Assembly: GCF_008247605.1 (NCBI RefSeq)
Contig: NZ_CP043420.1
Location: forward strand, 3,100,001 to 3,164,000
DNA length: 64,000 nt
Reading direction: 5' to 3'
From: Kushneria phosphatilytica
GTDB lineage: Bacteria > Pseudomonadota > Gammaproteobacteria > Pseudomonadales > Halomonadaceae
Shown here piece after piece: positions 19,544 through 64,000 of this stretch (its first letter is position 1; every line of letters starts with the position of its first letter). The notes under the pieces are model-generated. The model saw nothing but the letters and a program-made list of their open reading frames with translations. It had not been told where the DNA came from and searched no databases. The position numbers were made by a program, and so were the translations under genes.

Positions 19544-19925
19544 GGGGGCGTTCCGGATTCGACGCCGGTAGTGATCCCTGAGGTGCATGCCGAGAGCGTA
19601 GCGTATCTCGTAAATCCAACGTTACTTTTAAAATAGTCGCAAACGACGAAACCTATGCTCAGGAAGGTGCACTCGCAGCATAAACCCTGCGGGTAATCTT
19701 TCTACCCTGAAGCGATGTGCCTGTTCATCGTGGATGGGCGTGAGCCAAAGCTGACAGGATCGCGAATGACGGCGTCTTCACGTCATTCGTTAAAACTCCG
19801 GAGACTCGCTGTATCGGATCCTGATCGTCGGAGCCGATGCGGCTAAACCAAAAGACGGAACTAAGCATGTAGATCCGAAGGGCTAGCACCGGCGGACGCG
19901 GGTTCAACTCCCGCCGCCTCCACCA
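19544..19925 (+). ncRNA. ssrA: tmRNA (SsrA), tag ANDETYAQEGALAA
   Basis: 382 nt. The 5' end GGGGGCG pairs with CGCCTCC before the terminal ACCA, forming the acceptor stem. GTTCAACTC in the T-loop region and the GGATTCGAC of the 5' domain are tmRNA hallmarks. The tag frame runs from GCA at 19639 to TAA at 19681-19683 and encodes ANDETYAQEGALAA. The last 30 nt (19896-19925) lie in the prophage attachment repeat, so the present 3' end was supplied by the phage. Confidence 0.95.
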
Positions 19926-19963
19926 AACAGCAAAAGGGCCGCTGAGCAATCAGCGGCCCTTTT
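19896..19963 (+). repeat. attL, 68-bp attachment repeat
   Basis: This stretch is identical over 68 bp to 59169-59236. It comprises the last 30 nt of ssrA (ACGCGGGTTCAACTC...CCACCA), a short spacer and the ssrA terminator hairpin. It marks the left junction of the prophage. Confidence 0.93.
19932..19963 (+). terminator. ssrA terminator within attL
   Basis: AAAAGGGCCGCTGA and TCAGCGGCCCTTTT form a perfect stem around a GCAA loop with a T-rich tail. The same hairpin is present in attR, so both the restored tmRNA and the displaced chromosomal end retain a terminator. Confidence 0.9.
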
Positions 19964-41425: not shown

Positions 41426-41869
41426 ATGCTCATGGCCCTTGGAATGTTCGTATTTGAGACAAGTACGGTCCCCTACCAGCAACTCCAGCGCCGCACCGAG
41501 TGGCGCCATGCCTCGCAGTCGCGTGTGGGAGACCGTCCCGCATATCAGTTTATCGGCCAGGGCGCCGATACCATTACCCTTTCGGGCACGCTCTATCCGG
41601 AGCTGACCGGCGGCCGCGTGGATCTCGACCAGATTCGGGACATGGCCGACCAGGGCAAGGCATGGCCGCTGGTCGAGGGCAGCGGCCGGCAGTACGGCTT
41701 GTGGGTCGTTACGGGTGTCGATGAGACATCGAGCACGCTGTTTCGCGATGGCGCGGCGGCAAAAATCGAGTTTTCTCTGACGCTCGAGCATGTCGACGAC
41801 AATCAGACCGACCGCCTCGGCGATCTCACACTCTACAGCGCCGCGCTGCTGCAGGGAGCCTATGCCTGA
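41426..41869 (+). CDS. U: Tail protein U (P2 gpU-like)
   Basis: 147 aa. MLMALGMFVFETSTVPYQQLQRRTEWRHASQSRVGDRPAYQF aligns with the gpU start, so the ATG at 41426 is preferred over the GTG at 41417. gpU ends the tail tube. The last base is shared with the gpD ATG. Confidence 0.94.
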   Translation: MLMALGMFVFETSTVPYQQLQRRTEWRHASQSRVGDRPAYQFIGQGADTITLSGTLYPELTGGRVDLDQIRDMADQGKAWPLVEGSGRQYGLWVVTGVDETSSTLFRDGAAAKIEFSLTLEHVDDNQTDRLGDLTLYSAALLQGAYA

Positions 41870-42885
41870 TGGCCGCGAATCAGCAGCGCCCCTACCGGCG
41901 CCCCGGCTACCGCATCACACTCGCCGGGCAGGACATCACCCCGCGTATTAACGGCCGGCTGATCAATCTGCGCATCCGCTCCCAGCGCGGGCAGGAGGCG
42001 GATCAGCTCGATATCAGTCTGACCGATCACGATGGCCTGCTCGATATTCCGCCCAGCGGCGCAACGCTCTCGGTCGCGATCGGCTGGCTGGATGAGGGCC
42101 TGATCGACCGGGGCGTGTTCACCGTCGACGAGATCACCCATTCGGGCAGCCCGGACCAGCTCACCATCCGCGCACGCGCCGCCGACATGGGCAGCCTGCT
42201 GCCCGGCAAGCGCTCGCAGTCATGGCACGACATCACCCTGGGCGAGATCGTCGACACCATCGCTGGCCGGCATGAACTCTCCCCGGTGGTAGGCGACACG
42301 CTCTCCGGTATCCGCATCGATCACATCGACCAGACCGACGAATCGGACCTCAATTTCCTGACTCGGCTGGGCAAGCGCTATGACGCCATCGCCGCAATCA
42401 AGTCCGAGCGCATGCTGTTCACGCTCGTCGGCGAGGCACTCACAGCCAGCGGGCTCGCTTTGCCAGCCGCCACCCTCACCCGCCGCGATGGCGACCAGCA
42501 CCGGTTCAGCCGTACCGACCGCGACGCTGACAGCTACACCGGTGTAAAGGCGTACTGGAACGACACGAAAGGTGCCGAGAGAAAGGAAGTCATTGCCGGC
42601 GCGAAGGATAAATCCAAGGAGCTGCGCGAAACCTACGCCAGCGAGGCCGACGCAATGGAAGCCGCGAAATCGGAATGGCGCCGCATCCAGCGTGGCGCGG
42701 CCACGTTCGATCTCACCCTCGCCCACGGCCACCCGGACCTGATACCAGAAACGCCGCTCACGCTCAGCGGCTGGAAATCGCAGATCGACGGCACGGACTG
42801 GCTGATCACCGAGGTCGAAGACTCGCTCGATGACAGTGGGTATGGGACACGGATCAAGTGCGAGATACAGAATTCTTCAGAGTAA
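41869..42885 (+). CDS. D: Late control/baseplate hub protein D (P2 gpD-like)
   Basis: 338 aa. YRITLAGQDITPRINGRLINLRIRSQRGQEADQLDISLTDHDG and DQTDESDLNFLTRLGKRYDA are typical of gpD, the baseplate hub. This is the last conserved structural gene; cargo starts immediately after it. Confidence 0.95.
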   Translation: MAANQQRPYRRPGYRITLAGQDITPRINGRLINLRIRSQRGQEADQLDISLTDHDGLLDIPPSGATLSVAIGWLDEGLIDRGVFTVDEITHSGSPDQLTIRARAADMGSLLPGKRSQSWHDITLGEIVDTIAGRHELSPVVGDTLSGIRIDHIDQTDESDLNFLTRLGKRYDAIAAIKSERMLFTLVGEALTASGLALPAATLTRRDGDQHRFSRTDRDADSYTGVKAYWNDTKGAERKEVIAGAKDKSKELRETYASEADAMEAAKSEWRRIQRGAATFDLTLAHGHPDLIPETPLTLSGWKSQIDGTDWLITEVEDSLDDSGYGTRIKCEIQNSSE

Positions 42886-43658: not shown

Positions 43659-43674
43659 CTGTATAAAGATACAG
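43659..43674 (+). promoter_or_regulatory. LexA box of the prophage umuDC operon
   Basis: CTGTATAAAGATACAG fits CTG-N10-CAG and is close to the canonical CTGTATATATATACAG. It lies 30 bp before the 63-aa gene that leads the umuDC operon. Confidence 0.9.
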
Positions 43675-43703: not shown

Positions 43704-43895
43704 ATGCAACCCGCTCTGGAACTACTCACCCTCGATGCCACGCCCCTGCACTCCATGACCGTGCATCGGCCCTCGTGGATCTCGATTGACCGCTGGACCA
43801 ACACGCTCGAAGAACTGACCCTCTACCCCTCCACCCTGGTCGACTGGCTCGATGAAGACACCGCCACGCTGACATGGCCGAGCGAAGTGATGTGA
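43704..43895 (+). CDS. Small protein leading the SOS operon, 63 aa
   Basis: An ATG at 43704 gives 63 aa: MQPALELLTLDATPLHSMTV then TVHRPSWISIDRWTNTLEEL, ending DWLDEDTATLTWPSEVM. It is acidic and Leu/Thr-rich and not recognised. It lies between the LexA box and umuD, and its stop shares an A with the umuD ATG, implying translational coupling. An earlier in-frame ATG at 43650 lies before the LexA box and would not be on the SOS transcript. Confidence 0.68.
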   Translation: MQPALELLTLDATPLHSMTVHRPSWISIDRWTNTLEELTLYPSTLVDWLDEDTATLTWPSEVM

Positions 43896-44344
43896 TGCGC
43901 CTTATCGACCAACACCCCATGACCGTCGACCCGCCACGGCGCTCCATCCCCTGGGCGATCTTTCACGTTCGCGCCGGGCTCGCCGGCTTCCCCAGCCCGG
44001 CACAGGATTACGATGGCGGCTCCATCGATCTTAATGAGCAGCTGATCCCGCACCCCACCGCCACGTTCATGTTCACCGCCCAGGGCGATTCGATGTCCCG
44101 CGCGGATGGCTCGGGCATCTGTAATGGCGACCGCCTGCTGGTCGATCGCTCCCTCGACGCTACACACGGCGATATCGTGGTTGCCGTGGTCGATGGCGAA
44201 CTGGTCGTGAAGGAGCTACGCACCAAAGGCGGCAGGCCAGCGCTGCACAGCGCCAATACCTGCTATGCCCCGATTCCCCTGCTCGACCGTGATGTACAGA
44301 TCTGGGGCGTCGTCACCAACGTGCTGCGCACGCTACGGCGATGA
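43895..44344 (+). CDS. umuD: UmuD-like translesion polymerase subunit (S24 peptidase)
   Basis: 149 aa. The self-cleavage site A30-G31 lies in GLAGFPSPAQDY, as in UmuD. Catalytic Ser66 is in TAQGDSMSRAD and Lys106 in GELVVKELR. After RecA-stimulated cleavage it should form Pol V with UmuC. It overlaps umuC by 4 bp and is under the LexA box at 43659. Confidence 0.93.
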   Translation: MRLIDQHPMTVDPPRRSIPWAIFHVRAGLAGFPSPAQDYDGGSIDLNEQLIPHPTATFMFTAQGDSMSRADGSGICNGDRLLVDRSLDATHGDIVVAVVDGELVVKELRTKGGRPALHSANTCYAPIPLLDRDVQIWGVVTNVLRTLRR

Positions 44345-45630
44345 AAGGCCCGATTGCCCTCGTCGACTGCAACAACTTTTACGCCTCCTGCGAGCGCGTG
44401 TTCGAACCGCGCCTGCAAGGCGCGCCGGTCGCCGTGCTCTCCAACAATGACGGCTGCGTGATTGCCCGTTCGCAGGAAGTGAAGGCCCTCGGCATCGAGA
44501 TGGGCACACCGATTCACCACATCCCGCACGAGGCGTTCCGCGCCGGCTTGGTACTGCGCTCATCAAACTACGAGCTCTACGGCGATCTCAGCGCCCGGGT
44601 GCTGGCCACCCTGCGCGAACACACACCGGACGTGGAACCCTACAGCATCGACGAGAGCTGGCTCGGCTTCGGCGGCTTCGATCCGGCCGGGCTGACTGAC
44701 TACTGCCGTAAGATGCGCCGCACCGTCCACCGCTGGACCGGCATTCCCGTATCGGTCGGCATCGCCCCTACCCGCACGCTCGCCAAACTCGCCAATCACT
44801 ATGCCAAACGCCACGCAGCCACAGGCGGTGTTCATCAGCTGGGCGGACTGGACGACCCCGCGACTCGCGCCCTGCTCGAGCGCACGCCAGTGGGTGATAT
44901 CTGGGGGATCGCCGGACGCATCGAAGCACGCCTGGCACAACTGAAAATCCACAGCGCGCTGGATCTCGCCCGCGCCAATCCCAAATGGATCCGGAGCCAC
45001 TTCTCCGTGGTGATCGAACGCACCGCGCTTGAGCTCGCTGGCACGCCCTGTATCGAAATGCTCGACGAGCACGAATCTAAAAAGATGATCATGACCTCAC
45101 GCAGCTTCGGCCGAATGACCGGCGACTACCATGAGATTCAGGAAGCACTGCGCGCTCACGCCTCACGCGGCGCCGAAAAGCTCCGCGCTCAGCGCAGTCT
45201 CACCAGTGCCGTGATGGTGATGCTCAAGACCAACAAGCACGCCCTGCATCTGCGCCAACACCAGGACGCGATCACCATCGCCCTCCCCCGGCCAACAGAT
45301 AGCTCATTCGAGATCGTGCGCGCTGCCCAGCAGGGGCTGGAACGCATCTGGCGCAAGGGCTATCGATACCAAAAGTGCGGCGCCCAGCTGATGGATTTGA
45401 TCGGCCGCGGTAACCAGCAGCTCGGTATCTTCGAATCATCACAATCCGACGCCGAACGGCAACGCAGCGACAAGCTAATGGCCACGCTCGATCAGCTCAA
45501 TCGCAACTATGGCCGTGGTACGGTAACCGTAGGCATGCAGCGACAGGAAGCGGCGTGGCAGCTGCGCAGTAACTACCGCTCGAATCGATGGACGACAAGG
45601 TGGGAAGAACTGCCTACAGTCAAACTATGA
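44341..45630 (+). CDS. umuC: DNA polymerase V catalytic subunit UmuC (Y family)
   Basis: 429 aa. The Y-family motifs ALVDCNNFYASCERVFEP, VLSNNDGCVIARSQEVKALGI, VEPYSIDESWLGFGG (catalytic acidic pair) and the terminal ELPTVKL tail are present, and the length is full. It carries out error-prone lesion bypass. On a prophage it would raise SOS mutagenesis in the lysogen. Confidence 0.95.
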   Translation: MKGPIALVDCNNFYASCERVFEPRLQGAPVAVLSNNDGCVIARSQEVKALGIEMGTPIHHIPHEAFRAGLVLRSSNYELYGDLSARVLATLREHTPDVEPYSIDESWLGFGGFDPAGLTDYCRKMRRTVHRWTGIPVSVGIAPTRTLAKLANHYAKRHAATGGVHQLGGLDDPATRALLERTPVGDIWGIAGRIEARLAQLKIHSALDLARANPKWIRSHFSVVIERTALELAGTPCIEMLDEHESKKMIMTSRSFGRMTGDYHEIQEALRAHASRGAEKLRAQRSLTSAVMVMLKTNKHALHLRQHQDAITIALPRPTDSSFEIVRAAQQGLERIWRKGYRYQKCGAQLMDLIGRGNQQLGIFESSQSDAERQRSDKLMATLDQLNRNYGRGTVTVGMQRQEAAWQLRSNYRSNRWTTRWEELPTVKL

Positions 45631-46812: not shown

Positions 46813-47085
46813 ATGAGCGACACTGAAGAAATTAAAAAATATATAACAGAAATCCAAAAAATAATAAAAACGATGGAGGCGCAGAGCGAATCTGAAGAAA
46901 CAATAAAAGAGGAAATAGAAAAATATCTAAGAGGGAAGCATTCTGAACGTAAAGGTGTTTGCCATAAGCTTTCCCCGAAGCAGAAAAGATGCCTAAGGAA
47001 AGAGATAGATGCTATCTCGGCCAACCATCGCGCTATTAAACCCACTTACTACCGCATATACAAACACATATCACTTATCATATAA
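46813..47085 (+). CDS. Small charged coiled-coil protein, 90 aa
   Basis: 90 aa, very AT-rich codon use unlike the late genes. The first half is a Lys/Glu/Ile-rich helix (EEIKKYITEIQKIIKTMEAQ), the second basic with two cysteines (GVCHKL, RCLRKEIDAIS). It is preceded by GAGGATAAA. Not recognised; recently acquired cargo is likely. Its end overlaps the convergent gene by 15 bp. Confidence 0.6.
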   Translation: MSDTEEIKKYITEIQKIIKTMEAQSESEETIKEEIEKYLRGKHSERKGVCHKLSPKQKRCLRKEIDAISANHRAIKPTYYRIYKHISLII

Positions 47086-47559
47086 ACAAGCGCTCCTGAT
47101 ATAATCCCCTAAAGGGACAAGAGACCGCTGAAAAGCTTTAGAACTATGAAGGATTTTAGTAACAGAAACTCTCAAGCTTTCGACTTGCTCGTTCAAAGCC
47201 AACAATTTTTCAACATCCACCGAATCTCTTATCTCTTTATAACCCTCTTTAGTTTTCTGCAACCTTCCATTAGAAACAGTTGACTCATATAACCGCCTAA
47301 ACCTTTTTAACCACAAACCAACCATCTCTCTTTGCTCATCCTTACAAGCCATTTCTCTATAACCAAGGAGCTTTGACTCTATCTGTTCTCGAACATCAAC
47401 AAGATCGCTATTCTTTATTTCTATCTCGCTTTGCTTAATCCCAATATTCTGATAAAACTCCAGCCTTTGAAAGTAATTATTTTGTCTCGATTGGTATATC
47501 GATACGACTAAAGCTAATATAGCTATTGATAGTGCAAGAATATCAATGAAACGTGACAT
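47071..47559 (-). CDS. Membrane-anchored coiled-coil protein of unknown function
   Basis: 162 aa. One N-terminal membrane segment (FIDILALSIAILALVVSIYQ) is followed by a cytoplasmic alpha-helical region. AT-rich. Its start is 24 bp after the stop of the S24-like gene, so the two probably form one minus-strand unit. The layout (single TM plus coiled coil) resembles many small phage exclusion proteins, but there is no family match. Confidence 0.62.
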   Translation of the reverse strand: MSRFIDILALSIAILALVVSIYQSRQNNYFQRLEFYQNIGIKQSEIEIKNSDLVDVREQIESKLLGYREMACKDEQREMVGLWLKRFRRLYESTVSNGRLQKTKEGYKEIRDSVDVEKLLALNEQVESLRVSVTKILHSSKAFQRSLVPLGDYIRSACLYDK

Positions 47560-47583: not shown

Positions 47584-47931
47584 TTAAAAAACATACCGCC
47601 TCGTCTGACTGATCACTACCCCCCGCAACCGTTCTGCGCATGCCGGCAATGATTCACCTTGGCGGCAATACGGTCGCACTCGCCAGCCAGGACGCCAAAC
47701 CTGTACTAAGCGCTGTTCTCCCTCAATGTCGACGATCACAAGATCTCCGTGACCAGGGGAGCGTGCTTCATCGACAATCAGCATATCCCCCTCAATCAAC
47801 GGACCAGTCACACCCGCGCCTTCGTGCACTGAGACCAGGTAGCAAGTCTCAGGGAATGCTTTGATGTTGAAACAGCTCATCTCCGGATGATTAACGCCCT
47901 CACTCAGCGGACCGACATACTCCACACGCAT
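47584..47931 (-). CDS. Stand-alone S24-like (UmuD/LexA fold) protein, catalytically degenerate
   Basis: 115 aa from the ATG at 47931 (a GTG at 47943 is possible). The core VSVHEGAGVTGPLIEGDMLIVDEARSPGHGDLVIVDIEGEQRLVQVW aligns along UmuD from its GDSM to its VKKL, ending GVVISQTRRYVF. The Ser position is Gly and the Lys position is Val, so it should not cleave itself. No DNA-binding domain is present. It is paralogous to the gene at 48851, and a LexA-like palindrome lies just upstream. Confidence 0.72.
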   Translation of the reverse strand: MRVEYVGPLSEGVNHPEMSCFNIKAFPETCYLVSVHEGAGVTGPLIEGDMLIVDEARSPGHGDLVIVDIEGEQRLVQVWRPGWRVRPYCRQGESLPACAERLRGVVISQTRRYVF

Positions 47932-47950
47932 CACAATCGTCACCCAAATA

Positions 47951-47966
47951 CTGTACGTATATACAT
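47951..47966 (-). promoter_or_regulatory. LexA-like box upstream of the S24-like gene
   Basis: CTGTACGTATATACAT differs from the consensus CTGTATATATATACAG at three positions, including the last base (CTG-N10-CAT). It is 20-35 bp upstream of the ATG at 47931, where an SOS operator would sit. It overlaps a second near-palindrome, CGTATATACATATACG. Confidence 0.55.
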
Positions 47967-48004: not shown

Positions 48005-48031
48005 AAGAAAGCCGCTCCTATGGGAGCGGCT
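48005..48031 (-). terminator. Terminator after the Cys-repeat protein gene
   Basis: AGCCGCTCC (48010-48018) and GGAGCGGCT (48023-48031) form a perfect 9-bp stem with a 4-nt loop. On the minus strand TTTCTTG follows. It lies 15 bp after the stop. Confidence 0.65.
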
Positions 48032-48045
48032 GAAGCCTACCAGGA

Positions 48046-48372
48046 TCAATTGAATTGAAAGGACTTCCTGTTGCTGGCCGCGTCGGTTTCCATTTCGATA
48101 CAGCTTTTCAGGATCGAATAGCTGGACCCACCAACACTGGCCACCTGCTGACAGTAGTCCTGTGTTTTTGCAGGCACATCTGCCCAGCTGCTTTTCAAAA
48201 CATCGTAAGCGTCCTGCTGCATATCGATGCAGCTGTTGTAGATCGCATTGCTGGAGCCGCCCACGCTGGAAACCTGCTTACAGTAGGCCTCCACATCAAA
48301 ATGCGGCAGGTCCTCGGCATGGACAGCACCCGAAACCAGCATCAGTAGTGAAACACTGATGATACGTCGCAT
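48046..48372 (-). CDS. Periplasmic protein with two Cys-framed repeats
   Basis: 108 aa. Signal peptide MRRIISVSLLMLVSGAVHA|ED, then two tandem modules: YCKQVSSVGGSSNAIYNSC and YCQQVASVGGSSYSILKSC, each followed by an acidic helix (IDMQQDAYD, IEMETDAAS). The C-x16-C spacing repeats, suggesting one disulfide per module. A strong GAGGAGG precedes the ATG. Function unknown. It is 9 bp downstream of a membrane protein gene, forming a two-gene envelope unit. Confidence 0.78.
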   Translation of the reverse strand: MRRIISVSLLMLVSGAVHAEDLPHFDVEAYCKQVSSVGGSSNAIYNSCIDMQQDAYDVLKSSWADVPAKTQDYCQQVASVGGSSYSILKSCIEMETDAASNRKSFQFN

Positions 48373-48381
48373 ATCGCCTCC

Positions 48382-48717
48382 TCAATCGATAGCGTGCTGC
48401 AACATGGGCAACACCATGCCGACTTGGGTACCTGAATGATGCGGACTGGCAACCATGGCGCTGAAAATGGCGAGTCCAATGAAATAGATGGCAGGGGAGA
48501 CGATCAGGGTACAGACGATCTGTGTGATCCCGGCACCAGTACGACCACGGGTGATCACCACGATCGCGGTAATGAACGCGACCAGATTGAGCGGCCAACC
48601 GACAAACATGCCCAGACCGGGGACAGGCACAAGAAAGCAGATCCACGCGACCAGCATTACAATCCAGGTCGCTTTGACCGGGGCGCGGGAGGCAAGAGAA
48701 GCAGTGGCTTCAGACAT
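48382..48717 (-). CDS. Small membrane protein, three predicted helices
   Basis: 111 aa. Hydrophobic segments ATWIVMLVAWICFLVPVPGL, PLNLVAFITAIVVITRG and TQIVCTLIVSPAIYFIGLAIFSAMV. AGGGAAC precedes the ATG. No family recognised. It is paired with the Cys-repeat periplasmic protein, so an envelope-altering role in the lysogen is a reasonable inference. Confidence 0.72.
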   Translation of the reverse strand: MSEATASLASRAPVKATWIVMLVAWICFLVPVPGLGMFVGWPLNLVAFITAIVVITRGRTGAGITQIVCTLIVSPAIYFIGLAIFSAMVASPHHSGTQVGMVLPMLQHAID

Positions 48718-48850: not shown

Positions 48851-49120
48851 CTACCCCGGTAGCAGCCGCCACCGGGCACTAGGGCGCCACAGGCGATAAA
48901 GCTGCTGGAAGCCCTCCACCTCAGCCACGACCAGATCGCCGTGCCCGGGCGTGAGGGATTCATTCACTACCAAAATATCGCCTTCTATTATAGGACCTTT
49001 AATACCTGCGCTTTCATGGAGATAGACGGCAAAGCAACTTGGTGAAGACTGAGGCATACTCAGCTTTTCAAACTCGGGAATACCAAGAAGCGGACACAAA
49101 TATTTAACCAGTATAATCAA
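48851..49120 (-). CDS. Second stand-alone S24-like protein, truncated and catalytically degenerate
   Basis: 89 aa. The core VYLHESAGIKGPIIEGDILVVNESLTPGHGDLVVAEVEGFQQLYRLW is paralogous to the protein at 47584 and follows the UmuD fold. A Ser survives in HESAG, but the catalytic Lys is replaced (QLYRLW). The final beta strand of S24 proteins is missing. Its ATG overlaps the DUF4238 stop by 4 bp, so the two are translationally coupled, downstream of cI. Confidence 0.72.
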   Translation of the reverse strand: MIILVKYLCPLLGIPEFEKLSMPQSSPSCFAVYLHESAGIKGPIIEGDILVVNESLTPGHGDLVVAEVEGFQQLYRLWRPSARWRLLPG

Positions 49121-50223
49121 TCGTGCATCATTCTATGAAAATCATCTCTTAATTCTCTATCCAACCTCTCCAACTCTTTACTTCTATAAAGAACTGGCAA
49201 TCTCGAAACCTTCCTTCGATTAACCTCAACCCAATTTACTGCTTCCTTTCTAACCTTTAAGAAATTCAACCTCAAACCGATTTCAATGTCATTTCGAGAT
49301 GTAATTACTAAACGCGCTCGCTTATCGGACGCTTCCATCTCATTTTTCCTAGTAAGATTTTCTCTTCTTAGGGACGACACATCAGATGGAAAATCAGCAT
49401 CTGGAGCTTCTTCAGCACGAAAATAAATATTTTCTAGCGCAGACGCCCATTGCAGTTTATTCACACATCTCACATCAGCCGCACCGAGCGGCACACTACC
49501 ATTTTTCTTGAATCTGCTTTCATAAGTACTAGAATCATAAAAGAGGATGACCATCCTAGGCGAAATCGGAATAAATATTTGAAGCCCTTTTTGTCCAAGA
49601 GCAGTTTTGGGAAACCCACCAACACCCTCAAAAAGCTGGTTGTACAAAACAACTGGATTATCGCTCGTTATGAATTTTTCTTCTGTAACACTTTTCAAGA
49701 GGCATATCTTGAGATCTTGCAACATTAAATAATTATTGAACGCCAGCGCAACGGCAAGAATTGAGACATGGTCTATCTTAGCCGAGACATTATCCAAATC
49801 TTCCGGATTCAAGTCCGAGTCATTAAATCTTTCAAGATGTAATTTTGCAACTGTTCTAGCTAGTCCCGACGTCACTTCATTTAACGAACTTACCATATGC
49901 TCTGTTCTAAAATGCTGAGTCAACGCGAATAGGCAAAGCCGAAAATGTAACTTAGGCGTCGCAGCAGGAAACCCACTAGGGAATTTTTCTACAGACAAAA
50001 CCTTTCTGAAAATAGAAGAAATTGCCGACTCAAATTCAGACAAAACATTCTCAATTGTGGGATCTCTCCCGTAAAAATATTTTTTATAGCATTGACTTTT
50101 TAAAGGGGCAGACCTCACCTTCTTCCTCTGCGAGATATTAAATAACCCTATAGTAGACCCATCTTTAGAAAAATTTTTTAAATAAAACTGCGGAACAAAA
50201 TGTTGTTTTTTTTTGCTTGGCAT
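49117..50223 (-). CDS. DUF4238 protein in the repressor operon
   Basis: 368 aa. The start KKKQHFVPQFYLKNFSKDG and the EKFITSDNPVVLYN motif are typical of DUF4238, a family without an assigned biochemical role. Coding is strongly AT-rich against its GC-rich surroundings, implying recent transfer. It starts 9 bp after the cI stop with no visible promoter, so it should be expressed with the repressor in the lysogen. Prophage-borne immunity against other phages is an inference from this context. Confidence 0.82.
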   Translation of the reverse strand: MPSKKKQHFVPQFYLKNFSKDGSTIGLFNISQRKKVRSAPLKSQCYKKYFYGRDPTIENVLSEFESAISSIFRKVLSVEKFPSGFPAATPKLHFRLCLFALTQHFRTEHMVSSLNEVTSGLARTVAKLHLERFNDSDLNPEDLDNVSAKIDHVSILAVALAFNNYLMLQDLKICLLKSVTEEKFITSDNPVVLYNQLFEGVGGFPKTALGQKGLQIFIPISPRMVILFYDSSTYESRFKKNGSVPLGAADVRCVNKLQWASALENIYFRAEEAPDADFPSDVSSLRRENLTRKNEMEASDKRARLVITSRNDIEIGLRLNFLKVRKEAVNWVEVNRRKVSRLPVLYRSKELERLDRELRDDFHRMMHD

Positions 50224-50232
50224 TTAACAGTC

Positions 50233-50916
50233 TCAACTAATCCGTCCAATCCTTACCCGGCACTCCCCGATGATCTCCAATCCACCCATCTCCTCGGGCT
50301 TGATCATCTCAGGTTGATACCGGCTGTTGTCGCTGATCAGCATGTATGCCCCACCGGCCACACGCTGCACGCGTTTGATCCGCAAGCCATCGTCCATTCG
50401 TAGCAGGAACACGCCGTCCGGTTTCTTGCTGCTGCAATCGACCAGCACCCGATCACCATCCTGCAACGTGGTATCCATCGAATCACCGCGCACACGGACC
50501 CCTACCAGCTTTATCGGATCGAGGCCGTCATGCTTGAGCTGTTCGGTATCGAAGTAGAGCGAAGTCTCGATGTTCTCGACCTCGAATAACCGGCCGTCGC
50601 CAGCGGCGGCTTCGATATCGTAGATCGGTACCGGGGTATATCCCTCGACAGGAGAAGTGAGCGATTCGAATTCTGAGCTCACCCTGTCTCCCAAAATGAG
50701 CCAATCCAGGCTCACACCTTTCTCTTTTGCGATACGGATACATTGCTTGATAGGGATATTGCCTCGGGATCGCCAATTGCTGACGGTACTCGTAGGCACT
50801 CCCAGCTCAATGGCGAGATCCCGGTCCTGCTCCACACCACACACAGACATCAATCTGTTCAGGAAATTAGGCTCAAATTGGGCGTCGCTCATCAGGAATG
50901 GGCTCTCTATAGCCAT
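50233..50916 (-). CDS. cI: Phage CI repressor (HTH plus S24 protease)
   Basis: 227 aa. N-terminal CI-type HTH (DLAIELGVPTSTVSNWRSRGNIPIKQCI), linker, cleavage site A105-G106 (IEAAAGDGR), and an S24 domain with Ser146 (VRGDSMDTT) and Lys181 (LRIKRVQ). RecA-stimulated autocleavage would make the prophage SOS-inducible. It is divergent from a small RHH gene, and cI leads the minus-strand operon with DUF4238. Confidence 0.94.
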   Translation of the reverse strand: MAIESPFLMSDAQFEPNFLNRLMSVCGVEQDRDLAIELGVPTSTVSNWRSRGNIPIKQCIRIAKEKGVSLDWLILGDRVSSEFESLTSPVEGYTPVPIYDIEAAAGDGRLFEVENIETSLYFDTEQLKHDGLDPIKLVGVRVRGDSMDTTLQDGDRVLVDCSSKKPDGVFLLRMDDGLRIKRVQRVAGGAYMLISDNSRYQPEMIKPEEMGGLEIIGECRVRIGRIS

Positions 50917-53065: not shown

Positions 53066-53532
53066 GCACGATGGCCATGGCCACGGTTCACGCGATCCAT
53101 CAGCAGCACGATCCTCGCGACGAGTTTCTCGCCGTGCGTGCCGAGCTGCATCGCCGCACCGAGGATCTGGATCTGATCGAGCTGTGGGACGAGCTGCAGC
53201 CTGCCGAACGTCAGCTGGTATTACGTTCGGCGGCTCAGCATCTGGTGCCGCTGCGCCCGCTCAATGAGATCGACCCGGACGAGCGCACGGCGGATCGCAT
53301 CGTGGCCGATCTCACCCACTGCCCGATGGAGTGGATGAGACCGCAGGCACGCGAGGCCATTCGCGCCGCAATCCACCGCATGAGCACTTACGCCAATCGC
53401 CTGCGCGACCGGATGGAGCCGGAAGGCCCCCACCCGTCTCAGACGCTTGCCGCCAGTGCTCGGCACGCCCTCGCCCAGGGCGATACCGCCGCCGCAATGC
53501 ACTATCTGCAACTGATCGAGCAGACCCGATGA
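53062..53532 (+). CDS. Hypothetical early phage protein, 156 aa
   Basis: GTG start at 53062 overlapping the previous stop (ATG at 53071 is possible). Helical sequence with LDLIELWDELQPAERQLVLRSAAQHL and ARHALAQGDTAAAMHYLQLIEQTR. It overlaps gpA by 4 bp. It occupies the place of the P2 orf80-83/B region, but I see no clear gpB similarity. Confidence 0.7.
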   Translation: MSTMAMATVHAIHQQHDPRDEFLAVRAELHRRTEDLDLIELWDELQPAERQLVLRSAAQHLVPLRPLNEIDPDERTADRIVADLTHCPMEWMRPQAREAIRAAIHRMSTYANRLRDRMEPEGPHPSQTLAASARHALAQGDTAAAMHYLQLIEQTR

Positions 53533-55481
53533 ACGCAATCGAGCAATCCCGCGCCTATGGTGCGCCGGGTGACCATCGTCACCTGAGCTGCCAACAGTGG
53601 CGCCAGAAATATGTGTTCGACCGCTACCCGCATTATGCCGAGCGACTGGCAGAGGGCTTTCTGGCCATCGCCCGTCGTGATGGCAACGCCGCCGGCAACC
53701 GCTGGTTGCGCAAGACCTGCAAGCAGTTGCACGTCGGCCCGTTTCGGGTCACCCATGACGACGAGGGCATCCGCAACCACGCCGAGGCGCAGTCGCTGGC
53801 CATCAAGCGTTCGCATGATGAACTGATCGCCAAGGCCACCCGTTCCGGGGGTAGTGAGCTGGATGCGGCAGAAGAAGCGCTGCGCCTCGGGCTGGAGCGC
53901 GTCGAGATCCACGAAATCGATCCGCCCGATAACAAGTCGACCATCCGCGCCCAGCTGGCGCGACTTGAGGATGCCAAGTGGTGGCGCCGCAAGCTGCGCG
54001 TGCTGGCCGGTCGCCGGCTGGAGCAGCTGGAGCGCGAGATCGGCAACGTCCATCGCCGGGCCGGCATCTACTGCTCGAATACCACGGTGGAGCGTCGCAA
54101 GGCGCAGAAAGCACGCAATCATGCCCTGCTGGAGGCCATCGAGGCGATCAACCAGCACGGCCAGTACTACACGCTGGCCGAACTCTCCGAATTGGGGCTG
54201 GCAAACCCGGATCACCGCCGTGCCGAGCTGATGCTCCGCATTCGCGAGACCGAAACCGAGGCGCGCCGGCTGGGTCACATCGGCGTGTTCTATACCCTCA
54301 CCTGCCCGTCGCGGTTTCACCCGGTGCGGGCCAAGAGCTGCACGCGTAATCCGGTTTATGACGGGTACTCGCCACGCGATGCCCAGCGCTATCTGACCAA
54401 TCTCTGGGCGCGTATCCGCTCCGCTCTCGCCCGCGAGGACATCGGCATCTACGGCGTGCGCGTGGCCGAGCCACACCACGACGGCACCCCGCACTGGCAC
54501 CTGCTGATGTGGATGCAGCCCGACCATGTCGATCAGGTCGAGACCGTCATGCGTGACTACGCCCTGCAGGATTCGCCGGACGAGCCCGGCGCCGAGGCCA
54601 ATCGCTTCCAGGCCAAGCTGATCGACTACTCGAAAGGCACCGCCGCGGGCTACGTCGCCAAGTACATCTCGAAAAACGTCAACGGCCAGCAGTTTGTCGA
54701 GGCCGACGAGTATGGCCGCGACATGAAAAGCAGTGCGCCGCGCGTCGAGGCATGGGCTGCAGTGTGGGGCATCCGGCAGTTCCAGTTCGTCGGGCTGCCG
54801 AGCGTGACTGTGTGGCGCGAGGTTCGCCGCCTGACCGAGCAGCAGGCCCAGCAGCTGGCCGCGTGGGAGGACGCCACCAACCCCGGCCGCAAGATCCGCG
54901 AGTTCATGGCTCAGGTGCGCACCGCGTGCAACGCCGGGGCGTGGGATCAGTTCCTGCGACTGATGGGTGGGCCGCTGACGCCGCGTGCCGATCAGCCCGT
55001 GCGGCCGTGGCGCGAGTGGCGCATGGCCACCGGCACGGATGCTGAGCGCTGCGATCAGGAAATCCCGTTCGCCCGAGGCAGCTATGGGGATCGGGTCGAG
55101 GTGACCTATGGCCTGTTGGTGAAAGGTGCCGAGTACCTGACCCGGTTTTACAGCTGGACCATGCGGCCGAAGGCGCGCAACAGCGCGTATGACTTCAGCC
55201 AGCGGGGTTCATATGGAGGCGGCGCAGCCGCCGACCCTTGGACTCGTGTGAATAACTGTACGGGGATCGACATCACCCCCCGACAGCCCGACCCGCAGAC
55301 CGCCGAACAGCAGAAAAAGCACTATCAGGAATGGCGATCCCGCCCCGAGGTTCGAGCGGAGATCGAAGCGGAGCAGGAAGAAATCGACCGGGTCCGCGAT
55401 GCGCTGGCCCGATTGCTCGCTCCACCGCCGAGCGAGGCGGTATTGCTGCCCGATGAATACATGCCGCCCGAGCTGGCATGA
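53529..55481 (+). CDS. A: Rolling-circle replication initiator (P2 gpA-like)
   Basis: 650 aa HUH endonuclease. The metal motif is HWH at about residues 322-324 (DGTPHWHLLMW), and the paired catalytic tyrosines are Y375 and Y379 in AGYVAKYISKNVNG, as in P2 gpA. It nicks the phage origin, which in P2 lies within gene A itself. It is the largest early gene; small coupled genes flank it on both sides. Confidence 0.94.
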   Translation: MNAIEQSRAYGAPGDHRHLSCQQWRQKYVFDRYPHYAERLAEGFLAIARRDGNAAGNRWLRKTCKQLHVGPFRVTHDDEGIRNHAEAQSLAIKRSHDELIAKATRSGGSELDAAEEALRLGLERVEIHEIDPPDNKSTIRAQLARLEDAKWWRRKLRVLAGRRLEQLEREIGNVHRRAGIYCSNTTVERRKAQKARNHALLEAIEAINQHGQYYTLAELSELGLANPDHRRAELMLRIRETETEARRLGHIGVFYTLTCPSRFHPVRAKSCTRNPVYDGYSPRDAQRYLTNLWARIRSALAREDIGIYGVRVAEPHHDGTPHWHLLMWMQPDHVDQVETVMRDYALQDSPDEPGAEANRFQAKLIDYSKGTAAGYVAKYISKNVNGQQFVEADEYGRDMKSSAPRVEAWAAVWGIRQFQFVGLPSVTVWREVRRLTEQQAQQLAAWEDATNPGRKIREFMAQVRTACNAGAWDQFLRLMGGPLTPRADQPVRPWREWRMATGTDAERCDQEIPFARGSYGDRVEVTYGLLVKGAEYLTRFYSWTMRPKARNSAYDFSQRGSYGGGAAADPWTRVNNCTGIDITPRQPDPQTAEQQKKHYQEWRSRPEVRAEIEAEQEEIDRVRDALARLLAPPPSEAVLLPDEYMPPELA

Positions 55482-56142: not shown

Positions 56143-56430
56143 ATGCTGGCGATAGGTTTCGTGACCATCGATCGATTCGCATCCGAATCGGGATATAGCA
56201 AGGCTGCGGTGATATCGAAGATCAAGCGCGGCCAGTGGCGCAAGGATAGGGAATGGATCAAGGCACAGGATGGCCGGGTACTGATTTCGATAGAAGGATA
56301 TAACGAGTGGGTTCTCAGCAGTTCGAAGGAGTCAAACCGGGCTCGGCCAGCTCCATCCAGATCGACTTCGTCTACCAGGGAATCCGCTGTCGGGAACGCC
56401 TCAAGCTCAAGCCCACCCCCGCTAATCTGA
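56143..56430 (+). CDS. xis: Excisionase-like protein
   Basis: 95 aa. FVTIDRFASESGYSKAAVISKIKRGQWRKDREWIKAQDGRVLISIEGYNEWV is the compact winged-helix pattern of phage excisionases (DUF1233 type). The remaining Ser/Pro-rich tail is read in the same DNA as the integrase start and may be unstructured. It lies immediately before and overlapping int. Confidence 0.75.
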   Translation: MLAIGFVTIDRFASESGYSKAAVISKIKRGQWRKDREWIKAQDGRVLISIEGYNEWVLSSSKESNRARPAPSRSTSSTRESAVGNASSSSPPPLI

Positions 56431-57464
56431 AGCGTGCGGCGCGTCATCGCGCCGCGGTTATCGATGCCATCGAGGCCGGCACCTTCGATTACTCGGTGAC
56501 TTTCCCCAATAGCAAAAATGCCCGCCGCTTCATCCGTCAGGATCGCCTCGACAACTATTTGCGCCAGTGGCTCGAGGCGAAGCGGCCGACTCTGAAGGCC
56601 AGCACGCACCATGACTATTACAAGATCATCGAGGGCCAGCTGATCCCGCAGTTCGGCCATTTGATGCTTTCCGAGATCAAACGTCAGCATGCGAGAGAAT
56701 GGGCAGCCACCCTCACCTGCTCGAACAAGCGACTGGCCAACATCCTGAGTCCCTTACGTGCAGCACTGACCGATGCAGTCCACGATGAGCTGATTGCCAT
56801 CAATCCGCTGGCCGGCTGGCACTATCGGCGCCAGGAAACTGAAGTGCGACGGATGCAAGATGAGCCTGATCCATTCACTGCCGAGGAACAGGCGGCAATA
56901 CTGGCCAGCTTGCCGGATGAAGGCCGGCCGCTGATCCAATTCGCGTTCTGGACGGGGCTGCGTACATCGGAGCTGGTCGCCCTTGAATGGGGCGATATCG
57001 ACTGGCACCGCAATCGGGTACGTGTCTCGAAGGTCATCACCCAAGCCGGCAGGTGTAAGGCCGAGCAGCCCAAGACCGCGGCGGGGATACGCGATGTGGA
57101 TCTATTGCCGGCAGCGATCGAGGCACTCAAACAGCAGAAATCATTCAGCTATCTGCACCCGAGTGGTCGGATCTTTCTGAATCCTCGCACCGGCGAGCCA
57201 TGGACTGGCGATCAGGCTATCCGGAAGACGCTATGGGCCCATGCACTGAAGCGCGCAGGGGTTCGATACCGACGTCAGTACCAGACCCGGCATACCTATG
57301 CATCGATGATGGTTTCTGCCGGCGAACCACTGGCGTGGGTATCGAATCAGATGGGCCATACGGACGTGATCATCACCGCCCGGATCTATGCGAACTGGAT
57401 CCCGGTGAGCAGTCAGCAGGCAGGTCTAATGGCTGTGGCAAAGTATGGAGGTTCAATTTCCTGA
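56307..57464 (+). CDS. int: Phage tyrosine integrase
   Basis: 385 aa with a GTG start. It has an N-terminal arm-binding domain (about 1-70, DUF3596 type), a core-binding SAM-like domain (about 80-170), and a catalytic domain with Arg219 (TGLRTSEL), Tyr325-x-x-Arg328 (QTRHTYASM), His351 (GHTD) and Tyr361 (ARIYANW). It catalyses recombination at the ssrA 3' end. It sits at the distal end of the early operon, 1.7 kb from attR. Confidence 0.95.
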   Translation: MGSQQFEGVKPGSASSIQIDFVYQGIRCRERLKLKPTPANLKRAARHRAAVIDAIEAGTFDYSVTFPNSKNARRFIRQDRLDNYLRQWLEAKRPTLKASTHHDYYKIIEGQLIPQFGHLMLSEIKRQHAREWAATLTCSNKRLANILSPLRAALTDAVHDELIAINPLAGWHYRRQETEVRRMQDEPDPFTAEEQAAILASLPDEGRPLIQFAFWTGLRTSELVALEWGDIDWHRNRVRVSKVITQAGRCKAEQPKTAAGIRDVDLLPAAIEALKQQKSFSYLHPSGRIFLNPRTGEPWTGDQAIRKTLWAHALKRAGVRYRRQYQTRHTYASMMVSAGEPLAWVSNQMGHTDVIITARIYANWIPVSSQQAGLMAVAKYGGSIS

Positions 57465-59168: not shown

Positions 59169-59236
59169 ACGCGGGTTCAACTCCCGCCGCCTCCACCAAA
59201 CAGCAAAAGGGCCGCTGAGCAATCAGCGGCCCTTTT
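59169..59236 (+). repeat. attR, 68-bp attachment repeat
   Basis: An identical copy of 19896-19963: the 30-nt ssrA 3' end plus its terminator. This copy is the original chromosomal end left behind by integration. The space 59237-59510 beyond it holds no gene I can support. Confidence 0.93.
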
Positions 59237-63459: not shown

Positions 63460-64000
63460 ATGACTATGTCGCCCGCCCGGGACAGTGAAAGTCTGGCTAT
63501 GACCAGTGCCATCATGGGTCGCATGAAACAGCTGCTTAACGTTTCATCGGACTATCAGTTGGCTCAGCGCTTCGGTAAATCGACCAGCGCTATCCACAAC
63601 TGGAAGAAGCGTGGCACTGTCCCAATCGATGAATGTATTGAACTTTCAGTGGAATATGGTGCCAGCCTGGACTGGCTGATCATGGGAAAGGGTTCACCAC
63701 CATGGGAAAAGCCGGCCATACCGGCCTGGAGCGAGCCAGACAACGACCAGCCTTCGCATTTCACCCTGCGAGACTTCGTGGGGGTGCCTCTTTATGACAT
63801 CGAGGCCGCCGCCGGCCCGGGCCAGCTGTTCGATAGTGAGCAGGTTGAGACCTTTCTCAGCTTCCGCCATGACTGGATCCTCAAGGAGGGCCTGCATCTC
63901 AAGGATCTGGTAGCCGTGCGCGTCCGCGGGGATTCCATGGATGGCACGCTCAAGGACGGAGACACGGTGCTGATCAACCGCTCCATTATTCGCCCCGACG
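63460..64000 (+). CDS. CI-like phage repressor, cut by the window edge
   Basis: The first 180 codons only; no stop before the end. N-terminal CI-type HTH (DYQLAQRFGKSTSAIHNWKKRGTVPIDECI), cleavage site A118-G119 (IEAAAGPGQ) and the S24 nucleophile Ser159 (VRGDSMDGT). It is clearly homologous to the prophage cI at 50233 but different in sequence, so a different immunity type. Two CCTATAAG elements lie in the 187-bp divergent gap. Confidence 0.88.
   Translation, partial: MTMSPARDSESLAMTSAIMGRMKQLLNVSSDYQLAQRFGKSTSAIHNWKKRGTVPIDECIELSVEYGASLDWLIMGKGSPPWEKPAIPAWSEPDNDQPSHFTLRDFVGVPLYDIEAAAGPGQLFDSEQVETFLSFRHDWILKEGLHLKDLVAVRVRGDSMDGTLKDGDTVLINRSIIRPD

Follow-up and report, generated by a model that had tools for sequence, protein, structure and literature searches.

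The region behind the repressor gene of P2-like prophages in Halomonadaceae is probably a cargo slot, and this reading best accounts for a small gene cluster in a 64,000-nucleotide stretch of Kushneria phosphatilytica DNA (NCBI RefSeq assembly GCF_008247605.1, contig NZ_CP043420.1, positions 3,100,001 to 3,164,000; hereafter the window, with positions counted from its first letter). In this cluster, the genes for a cI-type repressor, a protein of the DUF4238 family and an S24-like open reading frame (ORF) of 89 amino acids are all on the minus strand, with a gap of 9 bp between the cI stop codon and the DUF4238 gene and an overlap of 4 bp between the latter and the S24-like ORF; a re-check of the coordinates found the positions, gap and overlap given in a preliminary description of this DNA to be right. 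The DUF4238 gene would be the present single-gene defence occupant of the slot, with no need of an S24 partner, and the S24-like ORF would be a decaying or partial copy of a landmark gene. The near border of the slot would be the repressor and its far landmark a UmuD'-like protein without the Ser-Lys dyad (hereafter dead UmuD'). The gene arrangement, its recurrence, the exchange of cargo, the lost dyad and the LexA-like boxes are seen in the sequences themselves, whereas phage blocking by DUF4238, a joint transcript with cI, LexA control and the role of dead UmuD' are inferences. The features on which the argument rests are as follows.

50233..50916, minus strand: cI-type repressor with helix-turn-helix and S24 domains, Ser, Lys and Ala-Gly site present (PF07022, E 7.5e-20; PF00717, E 8.7e-16)
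49117..50223, minus strand: DUF4238 protein, 368 amino acids, probable single-gene antiphage cargo (PF14022; 35-homologue alignment; family role from PMC9122126)
48851..49120, minus strand: truncated dead UmuD'-like copy, 89 amino acids, TTG start, no LexA-like box, 42% identical to its paralogue in the window
48010..48031, minus strand: hairpin resembling a terminator, at which the cI transcript presumably ends (9-pair stem, 7 G-C pairs, T-rich tail)
47951..47966, strand not assigned: LexA-like box (one mismatch in its core) immediately before the full-length dead UmuD' gene (box scan)
47584..47943, minus strand: full-length catalytically dead UmuD'-like gene, 119 amino acids, start GTG 47943 or ATG 47931, from a family of 146 loci
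41869..42885, plus strand: tail protein resembling P2 gpD, second border of the variable region (PF05954, E 2.9e-17)

A recurrent cargo slot and its DUF4238 occupant

The cluster lies within a 39 kb prophage that is integrated in ssrA and flanked by two identical 68-bp repeats (19896-19963 and 59169-59236). Its P2-type proteins comprise terminase, scaffold, capsid, sheath, tape-measure, gpD and gpA, accompanied by a tyrosine integrase, and the genes for all of the former except the tape-measure protein, together with the attachment (att) repeats, place it among the P2-like prophages.

The landmark protein of 119 amino acids was searched against 201 genomes of the family and matched in 93 of them at E<=1e-3, weak UmuD matches included. 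Down to E 1.3e-14 there were 71 matches outside the window; 70 of them (all but G105) were combined with two phage records into a genomic set of 72 loci, and 74 of 75 loci scanned out of viral contigs matched the model, giving 146 related loci in two partly overlapping sets. Of the 72 genomic loci, 67 had either an upstream cI in the same orientation or P2-like tail genes on the other strand; cI was found in 49, and the loci in which it was missed include contig ends and longer distances. Similarly, every viral-contig locus carried a marker (74/74), and cI was upstream in 57 of the 74. The gene appears to be concentrated in one family of bacteria: a sample of 293 genomes of the order yielded six matches at E<=1e-12, all six in the window's family, and in a protein search (120 of 145 hits listed), those of the listed matches with a genus name came from genera that we take to be Halomonadaceae.

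Of the first 40 loci, 37 were analysed for slot contents between cI and dead UmuD'; they held 76 unlabelled same-strand ORFs of at least 130 amino acids, which fell into 50 clusters and had a median GC content at third codon positions (GC3) of 0.42, with 50 of the 76 below 0.5. A Pfam scan of 30 slot ORFs gave a hit at E<=1e-3 for 15, and the families recognized by Pfam and PADLOC included KwaA/KwaB, Old, GmrSD and NsnA-like, FRG, AAA_15 ATPases, KAP, PIN, HNH, a HipA-like kinase and a type II methyltransferase. At E<=1e-5, PADLOC recognized known or candidate defence families in nine of 20 selected cargo proteins, as against one of 10 random ORFs outside the slot. Each of the 20 was a main ORF from a different locus among the 37 with cI, and L112, whose first ORF was an already known match, was excluded. 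Halomonas phage vB_HboP_4908 has the same plan, with an annotated cytosine methyltransferase and an Eco29kI-family restriction enzyme between dead UmuD' and gpD. The region behind cI in Halomonadaceae P2-like prophages is a general place to look, with contents that differ between phages, and the slot occupants without a PADLOC match are candidates for new defence families. Defence cargo in P2-like phages and defence by DUF4238 are already known; a search of titles and abstracts outside subscription papers found neither a repressor-linked P2 hotspot nor a dead UmuD of Halomonas phages, and the repressor-linked slot with its LexA-linked dead UmuD' landmark was not found described. As a separate observation, one related cargo family recurs in the slot at L130, L132, L147 and L148, and the two members scanned, L147 and L148, combine a BRCT match with a WYL match just under the cut-off, which is an unusual combination.

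Membership of the window protein in the Pfam DUF4238 family is certain: the domain was matched at full length (PF14022, profile 1-279 of 281, E 2.7e-41), and the start codon is consistent with an alignment of 35 homologues. With a GC3 of 0.35, far under the median of 0.81 for core phage genes of the related loci (n=142), the gene is foreign in composition, which bears out the AT-rich, foreign coding noted in the preliminary description. Its statement that DUF4238 has no known role is outdated, as a single DUF4238 gene cloned from an E. coli P2 hotspot conferred strong T7 resistance, with its molecular function given as unknown in the available text (Rousset et al. 2022, PMC9122126); no mechanism was found in the accessible portions of the literature naming DUF4238. 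An AlphaFold2 model of the window protein was confident (predicted local distance difference test, pLDDT, 85.7; predicted template modelling score, pTM, 0.88), and among solved structures there was no convincing match to it. DUF4238 is most likely lysogen-made defence cargo of the slot, as a single gene, and, judging from its family, it may block infecting phages.

Promoter and terminator sites were predicted by a consensus scan of the minus strand, in which the number of sites was not above that in shuffled sequence. The scan found no promoter-like site between cI and DUF4238, and none before cI either, and a weak terminator-like site of five pairs at 48625-48609 precedes the strong one at 48010-48031. 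Co-transcription of DUF4238 with cI is plausible. In the quiescent lysogen, a leftward cI transcript would carry DUF4238, the truncated S24 ORF and two small membrane- or export-like ORFs to the hairpin at 48031-48010, and DUF4238 would guard the lysogen against other phages.

The short S24-like ORF and its UmuD'-like family

A chance resemblance of the 89-residue ORF to S24 proteins was ruled out by its longer paralogue of 119 residues, to which it is 42% identical and which belongs to the family of 146 loci. The full-length copy has the S24 beta fold of the UmuD autoproteases (by an S24-fold model), and members of the family lack the Ser-Lys dyad: none of 140 relatives keeps both residues, Lys is never found at the lysine column (0/140) and Ala stands at the serine column in 136 of 140, in a count for which seven short rows were dropped beforehand and two alignments disagree at the serine column. 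Lys is absent in both window copies, so the missing catalytic lysine that the preliminary description had reported for the S24-like ORF was confirmed in the alignments. The closest solved sequences are UmuD and UmuD', and profile residues 25-112 align on UmuD' 22-112, indicating that the cleavable arm is missing in dead UmuD'.

LexA-like boxes, counted when no more than one core position was mismatched and 14 or more of the 20 consensus positions agreed, were found within 160 bp upstream at 51 of the 72 genomic and 51 of the 74 viral loci (102/146). As a background, when the 14/20 filter was left off, 160-bp pieces drawn at random from these loci contained a core with at most one mismatch in 115 of 4000 cases, and shuffled upstream sequences in 102 of 1950. 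The box was present in 24 of the 43 loci without umuC or umuD and is therefore not simply borrowed from umuDC. Among loci with cI, box-bearing copies are far from the repressor (31/37 genomic and 38/40 viral-contig copies at >=2 kb) and box-free copies are near it (11/12 and 15/17 under 2 kb; Fisher p 4e-6 and 8e-10), so that the dead UmuD' gene seems to occur in two settings, either as its own SOS unit or at the tail of the repressor operon. Among 17 loci displayed, seven have a gap of -4 to 25 bp from cargo to dead UmuD', and one of these seven, L146, has a LexA-like box with a later start. In the window, the full-length copy (47584-47943) has a predicted box, suggesting that it may be under LexA control, and the truncated copy has none within 160 bp upstream. 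The SOS sensing invoked in the preliminary description thus has a real counterpart in the S24 family, which in the window belongs to the full-length copy and not to the ORF next to DUF4238.

The S24 Pfam match of the 89-residue ORF reached 20.6 bits, below the cut-off of 23.3 bits, and its match to a UmuD-like PHROG had an E of 1.2e-8. Its serine column holds Ser in one alignment and Ala in the larger one. The ORF stops before the C-terminal invariant block and last strands of its relatives, with about 25 residues that include invariant positions missing. In a tree it was placed on a long branch beside the window's longer copy (95/67), within the box-bearing group; this tree is based on few columns of short proteins, with rows scoring <130 or of <90 amino acids dropped (66/72 kept), and many of its forks are unresolved. 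By sequence, the ORF looks like a partial or decaying duplicate of the landmark gene.

It had been proposed in the preliminary description that DUF4238 and the S24-like protein form a two-component immunity or exclusion module, which would make DUF4238 the effector and the short S24 protein a sensor or antitoxin for the SOS or repressor state. The idea of a repressor-linked unit with cargo expected in the lysogen for phage exclusion is retained, since a gene of the family has been validated and the slot behind cI is recurrent; the two-component part is not, because the S24 ORF is truncated and the pair does not recur, an outcome that the preliminary description had itself named as refuting. 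DUF4238 was found at none of the 146 dead UmuD' loci, either by BLAST or by a profile of 36 DUF4238 proteins, the profile count being added because BLAST with the window protein misses distant DUF4238 genes. Conversely, within the fetched stretches, no S24 relative was present at the best 80 of 183 DUF4238 loci of species genomes (0/80) or in 10 DUF4238 viral contigs (0/10). DUF4238 is present in 12 of the 201 family genomes, and the stretches of the other 11 (eight wide, the rest with 1.5 kb flanks) contained no dead UmuD' and no P2 markers, with a normal umuDC within the stretch in two of them. In one of these two (L167 1489-2535), umuC is followed after 35 bp by a divergent DUF4238 gene, which is the sole hint, and a weak one, favouring a DUF4238-S24 link. 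Besides this hint, the 4-bp overlap and the full-length dead UmuD' genes closely behind cargo at seven of the 17 displayed loci speak for a joint module; the missing recurrence, the truncation and a tested family member that, in the available text, acts alone (PMC9122126) speak against it, making it highly improbable, and DUF4238-S24 as a fixed pair was rejected. In viral contig L282, a 37%-identical DUF4238 gene was observed about 1.4 kb from gpD, on the opposite strand as in the window and with no S24 relative, the contig ending before any cI; DUF4238 has therefore reached the cargo region beside gpD in a second P2-like phage, unaccompanied by an S24 gene.

Several observations weigh against a cargo slot with a single-gene DUF4238 occupant and a decaying S24 copy. 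Among the loci compared, DUF4238 occupies the slot in the window prophage only (0/146 related loci), and the PADLOC DUF4238-Pers model matched the window protein only partially (residues 4-141, E 1.9e-6), so that the latter may be just distantly related to the E. coli protein with tested activity. Five of the 72 genomic loci are without any P2 marker. The slot ORFs were selected mechanically by length and composition, and the PADLOC contrast is small by itself, with 20 hand-picked proteins of which 11 had no match. Two weak promoter-like sites (9/12) from the consensus scan, at 49159-49110 near the 3' end of DUF4238, bear on the single cI transcript and are not decisive either way. In addition, the 89-residue ORF is positioned like the LexA-free dead UmuD' genes elsewhere (15/17 such viral-contig copies are <2 kb from cI) and may therefore still work, in which case it would be a naturally short protein of the LexA-free, repressor-linked type that is made in the lysogen. 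It is in the right place, overlaps tightly with DUF4238, and has box-free counterparts near cI in both sets of loci (11/12 and 15/17); its grouping with the box-bearing copy of the window (95/67), on a long branch of a few-column tree, and the absence of some 25 C-terminal residues with invariant positions make a working short protein unlikely. The reading as a partial or decaying copy is therefore preferred.

Possible roles of the dead UmuD'-like protein

The dead UmuD' probably has a separate SOS-linked phage function, as a brake on RecA-driven cleavage or as a subunit of DNA polymerase V (Pol V). Once DNA damage had released LexA from the box at 47951, a separate unit comprising the full-length dead UmuD' gene and a 162-residue ORF behind it would be expressed. 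In the favoured reading of its role, the non-cleavable UmuD'-fold protein might then compete on RecA filaments or pair with S24 domains, such as those of cI or UmuD, and so brake cI cleavage or tune mutagenesis during SOS. We tentatively suggest, as an idea more apt to fall than to stand, that Halomonadaceae P2-like prophages carry a naturally inactivated S24 protein of UmuD' shape with a dominant-negative action, encoded either in a LexA-controlled unit or in the cI operon, which acts on the RecA/cI/UmuD cleavage circuit and times when, during DNA damage, the lysogen and its defence cargo are given up, and that the slot is a repressor-gated arsenal whose unassigned occupants are undiscovered defence systems. 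Because dead UmuD' provides a naturally occurring S24 protein that is non-cleavable and has a LexA-like box, its effect on repressor cleavage and mutagenesis is directly testable.

It is possible, if doubtful, that the protein acts instead as a ready-made UmuD'-like subunit for a translesion polymerase, in the manner of P1 HumD, with no cleavage needed. This would agree with UmuD and UmuD' as the nearest solved sequences and with the missing cleavable arm. A umuC match was found nearby, on the opposite strand, at 26 of the 72 loci (19 approximately full length and seven fragments), and six of the 19 (L152, L153, L170, L171, L176 and L178) have umuC (420 residues aligned) with no UmuD found in the fetched stretch. 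However, 43 of the 72 loci, within the fetched stretches, and 50 of the 74 in viral contigs have neither umuC nor umuD, and 13 of the 72 have both UmuD and umuC, which would make a second UmuD redundant. A role as umuC partner in all phages was rejected as a general explanation on the basis of the 43 loci. A role as an SOS-induced antirepressor, which would bind cI and set off induction like 186 Tum or the Gifsy antirepressors, is quite improbable. The LexA-like boxes, an S24 fold that in principle could pair with the C-terminal domain of cI, and the presence of cI upstream at 49/72 and 57/74 loci are in its favour, and LexA-controlled antirepressors are known from the available text of PMC3121763. 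According to the same text, however, the Gifsy repressors remain uncleaved in induction (PMC3121763), whereas the Ser, Lys and Ala-Gly cleavage residues are kept in 50 of 50 aligned cI proteins; cI looks cleavable, and an antirepressor is therefore not needed. LexA-free copies near cI would moreover be co-made in the lysogen, which is odd for an inducer. The same conservation in cI weighs against a role of dead UmuD' on cI in general, including the brake suggested above.

Neighbouring features and comparison with known systems

The other features of the prophage are listed below.

19896..19963, plus strand: attL-like copy of the 68-bp repeat, which overlaps ssrA (transfer-messenger RNA, 19544-19925) at its 3' end
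43659..43674, strand not assigned: perfect LexA-box core upstream of umuDC (box scan)
43874..44341, plus strand: UmuD with catalytic Ser and Lys present (PF00717, E 4.4e-25; residues from alignment)
44341..45630, plus strand: UmuC-type polymerase (PF00817, PF11799, PF13438)
47071..47559, minus strand: AT-rich ORF, 162 amino acids, located 24 bp after the full-length dead UmuD' gene and with a hydrophobic N-terminus (ORF list, composition)
48046..48372, minus strand: small secreted-looking Cys-containing ORF, 108 amino acids (BLAST relatives in 10/72 and 10/74 loci)
48382..48717, minus strand: small membrane-protein-like ORF, 111 amino acids (BLAST relatives in 6/72 and 2/74 loci)
53532..55481, plus strand: P2 gpA-like replication protein (PF05840, E 2.2e-83)
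56307..57464, plus strand: tyrosine integrase (PF00589, PF12167)
59169..59236, plus strand: attR-like second copy of the 68-bp repeat (repeat match)

The 162-residue ORF matched no family at useful E-values and had no BLAST relative in the 146 dead UmuD' loci; it is a possible second cargo and might be induced by SOS together with the full-length dead UmuD'. A second AT-rich ORF lies behind the same gene at 46813-47085. The 108-residue ORF consists of two similar Cys-containing halves, and several relatives of this and the 111-residue ORF (48046-48717) adjoin cI in other such prophages; the two are a candidate superinfection-exclusion pair. Outside attR, an orphan gene for a repressor of cI type, which shares 46% identity with the cI of the prophage, occupies 63514-64000 of the window and continues to 64176 on the chromosome (L299 4461-5183). 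None of the others among the 21 window proteins searched matched within the 40 kb examined there, and it is probably a relic of another such phage. In the available text of a paper on a phage carrying a dead UmuD' gene, the gene is named only as an SOS response protein (PMC11448403). This text also reports that the lysozyme of Bacillus phage vB_BpuM-ZY1 clusters with a Halomonas one (PMC11448403). The fetched stretch of vB_BpuM-ZY1 (L153, OR820920), recorded from Bacillus pumilus, has approximately the gene order of Halomonas phage vB_HboP_4908, and its host assignment deserves a check.

The window gene resembles the DUF4238 defence gene of the E. coli P2-like hotspot (PMC9122126) in carrying the same Pfam domain, over its full length, and in being the single-gene cargo of a P2-like prophage. 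The E. coli hotspot is situated between gpA and gpQ, next to cos (PMC9122126), whereas the window cargo, from Halomonadaceae and a partial match to the PADLOC model, stands behind cI, between cI and gpD. The old/tin locus of P2, likewise cos-proximal, also holds exchangeable defence cargo, and an Old homologue occurs in the present slot at L140; the present slot has a different genomic position, being repressor-linked and having dead UmuD' and gpD as its borders.

The Tum protein of phage 186 is an SOS-induced, LexA-controlled antirepressor. Like Tum and the Gifsy antirepressors (PMC3121763, available text), dead UmuD' would be the product of a LexA-controlled prophage gene, whereas the cI of the present prophages looks cleavable. 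The Hex protein of phage 434, which is small, prophage-encoded and produced along with the repressor in lysogens, is a model for a brake on RecA-driven repressor cleavage (PMC3564112); Hex overlaps the repressor gene, whereas a LexA-like box of its own accompanies the dead UmuD' gene at most loci. UmuD' and P1 HumD share with the full-length copy the UmuD' length and fold, the absence of a cleavable arm and a LexA-like box. HumD is short, LexA-controlled and active without cleavage. Dead UmuD' differs from both in having Ala at the serine column in 136 of 140 relatives and never Lys at the lysine column, and in being linked to P2-like prophages that, in the samples searched, are nearly all from Halomonadaceae.

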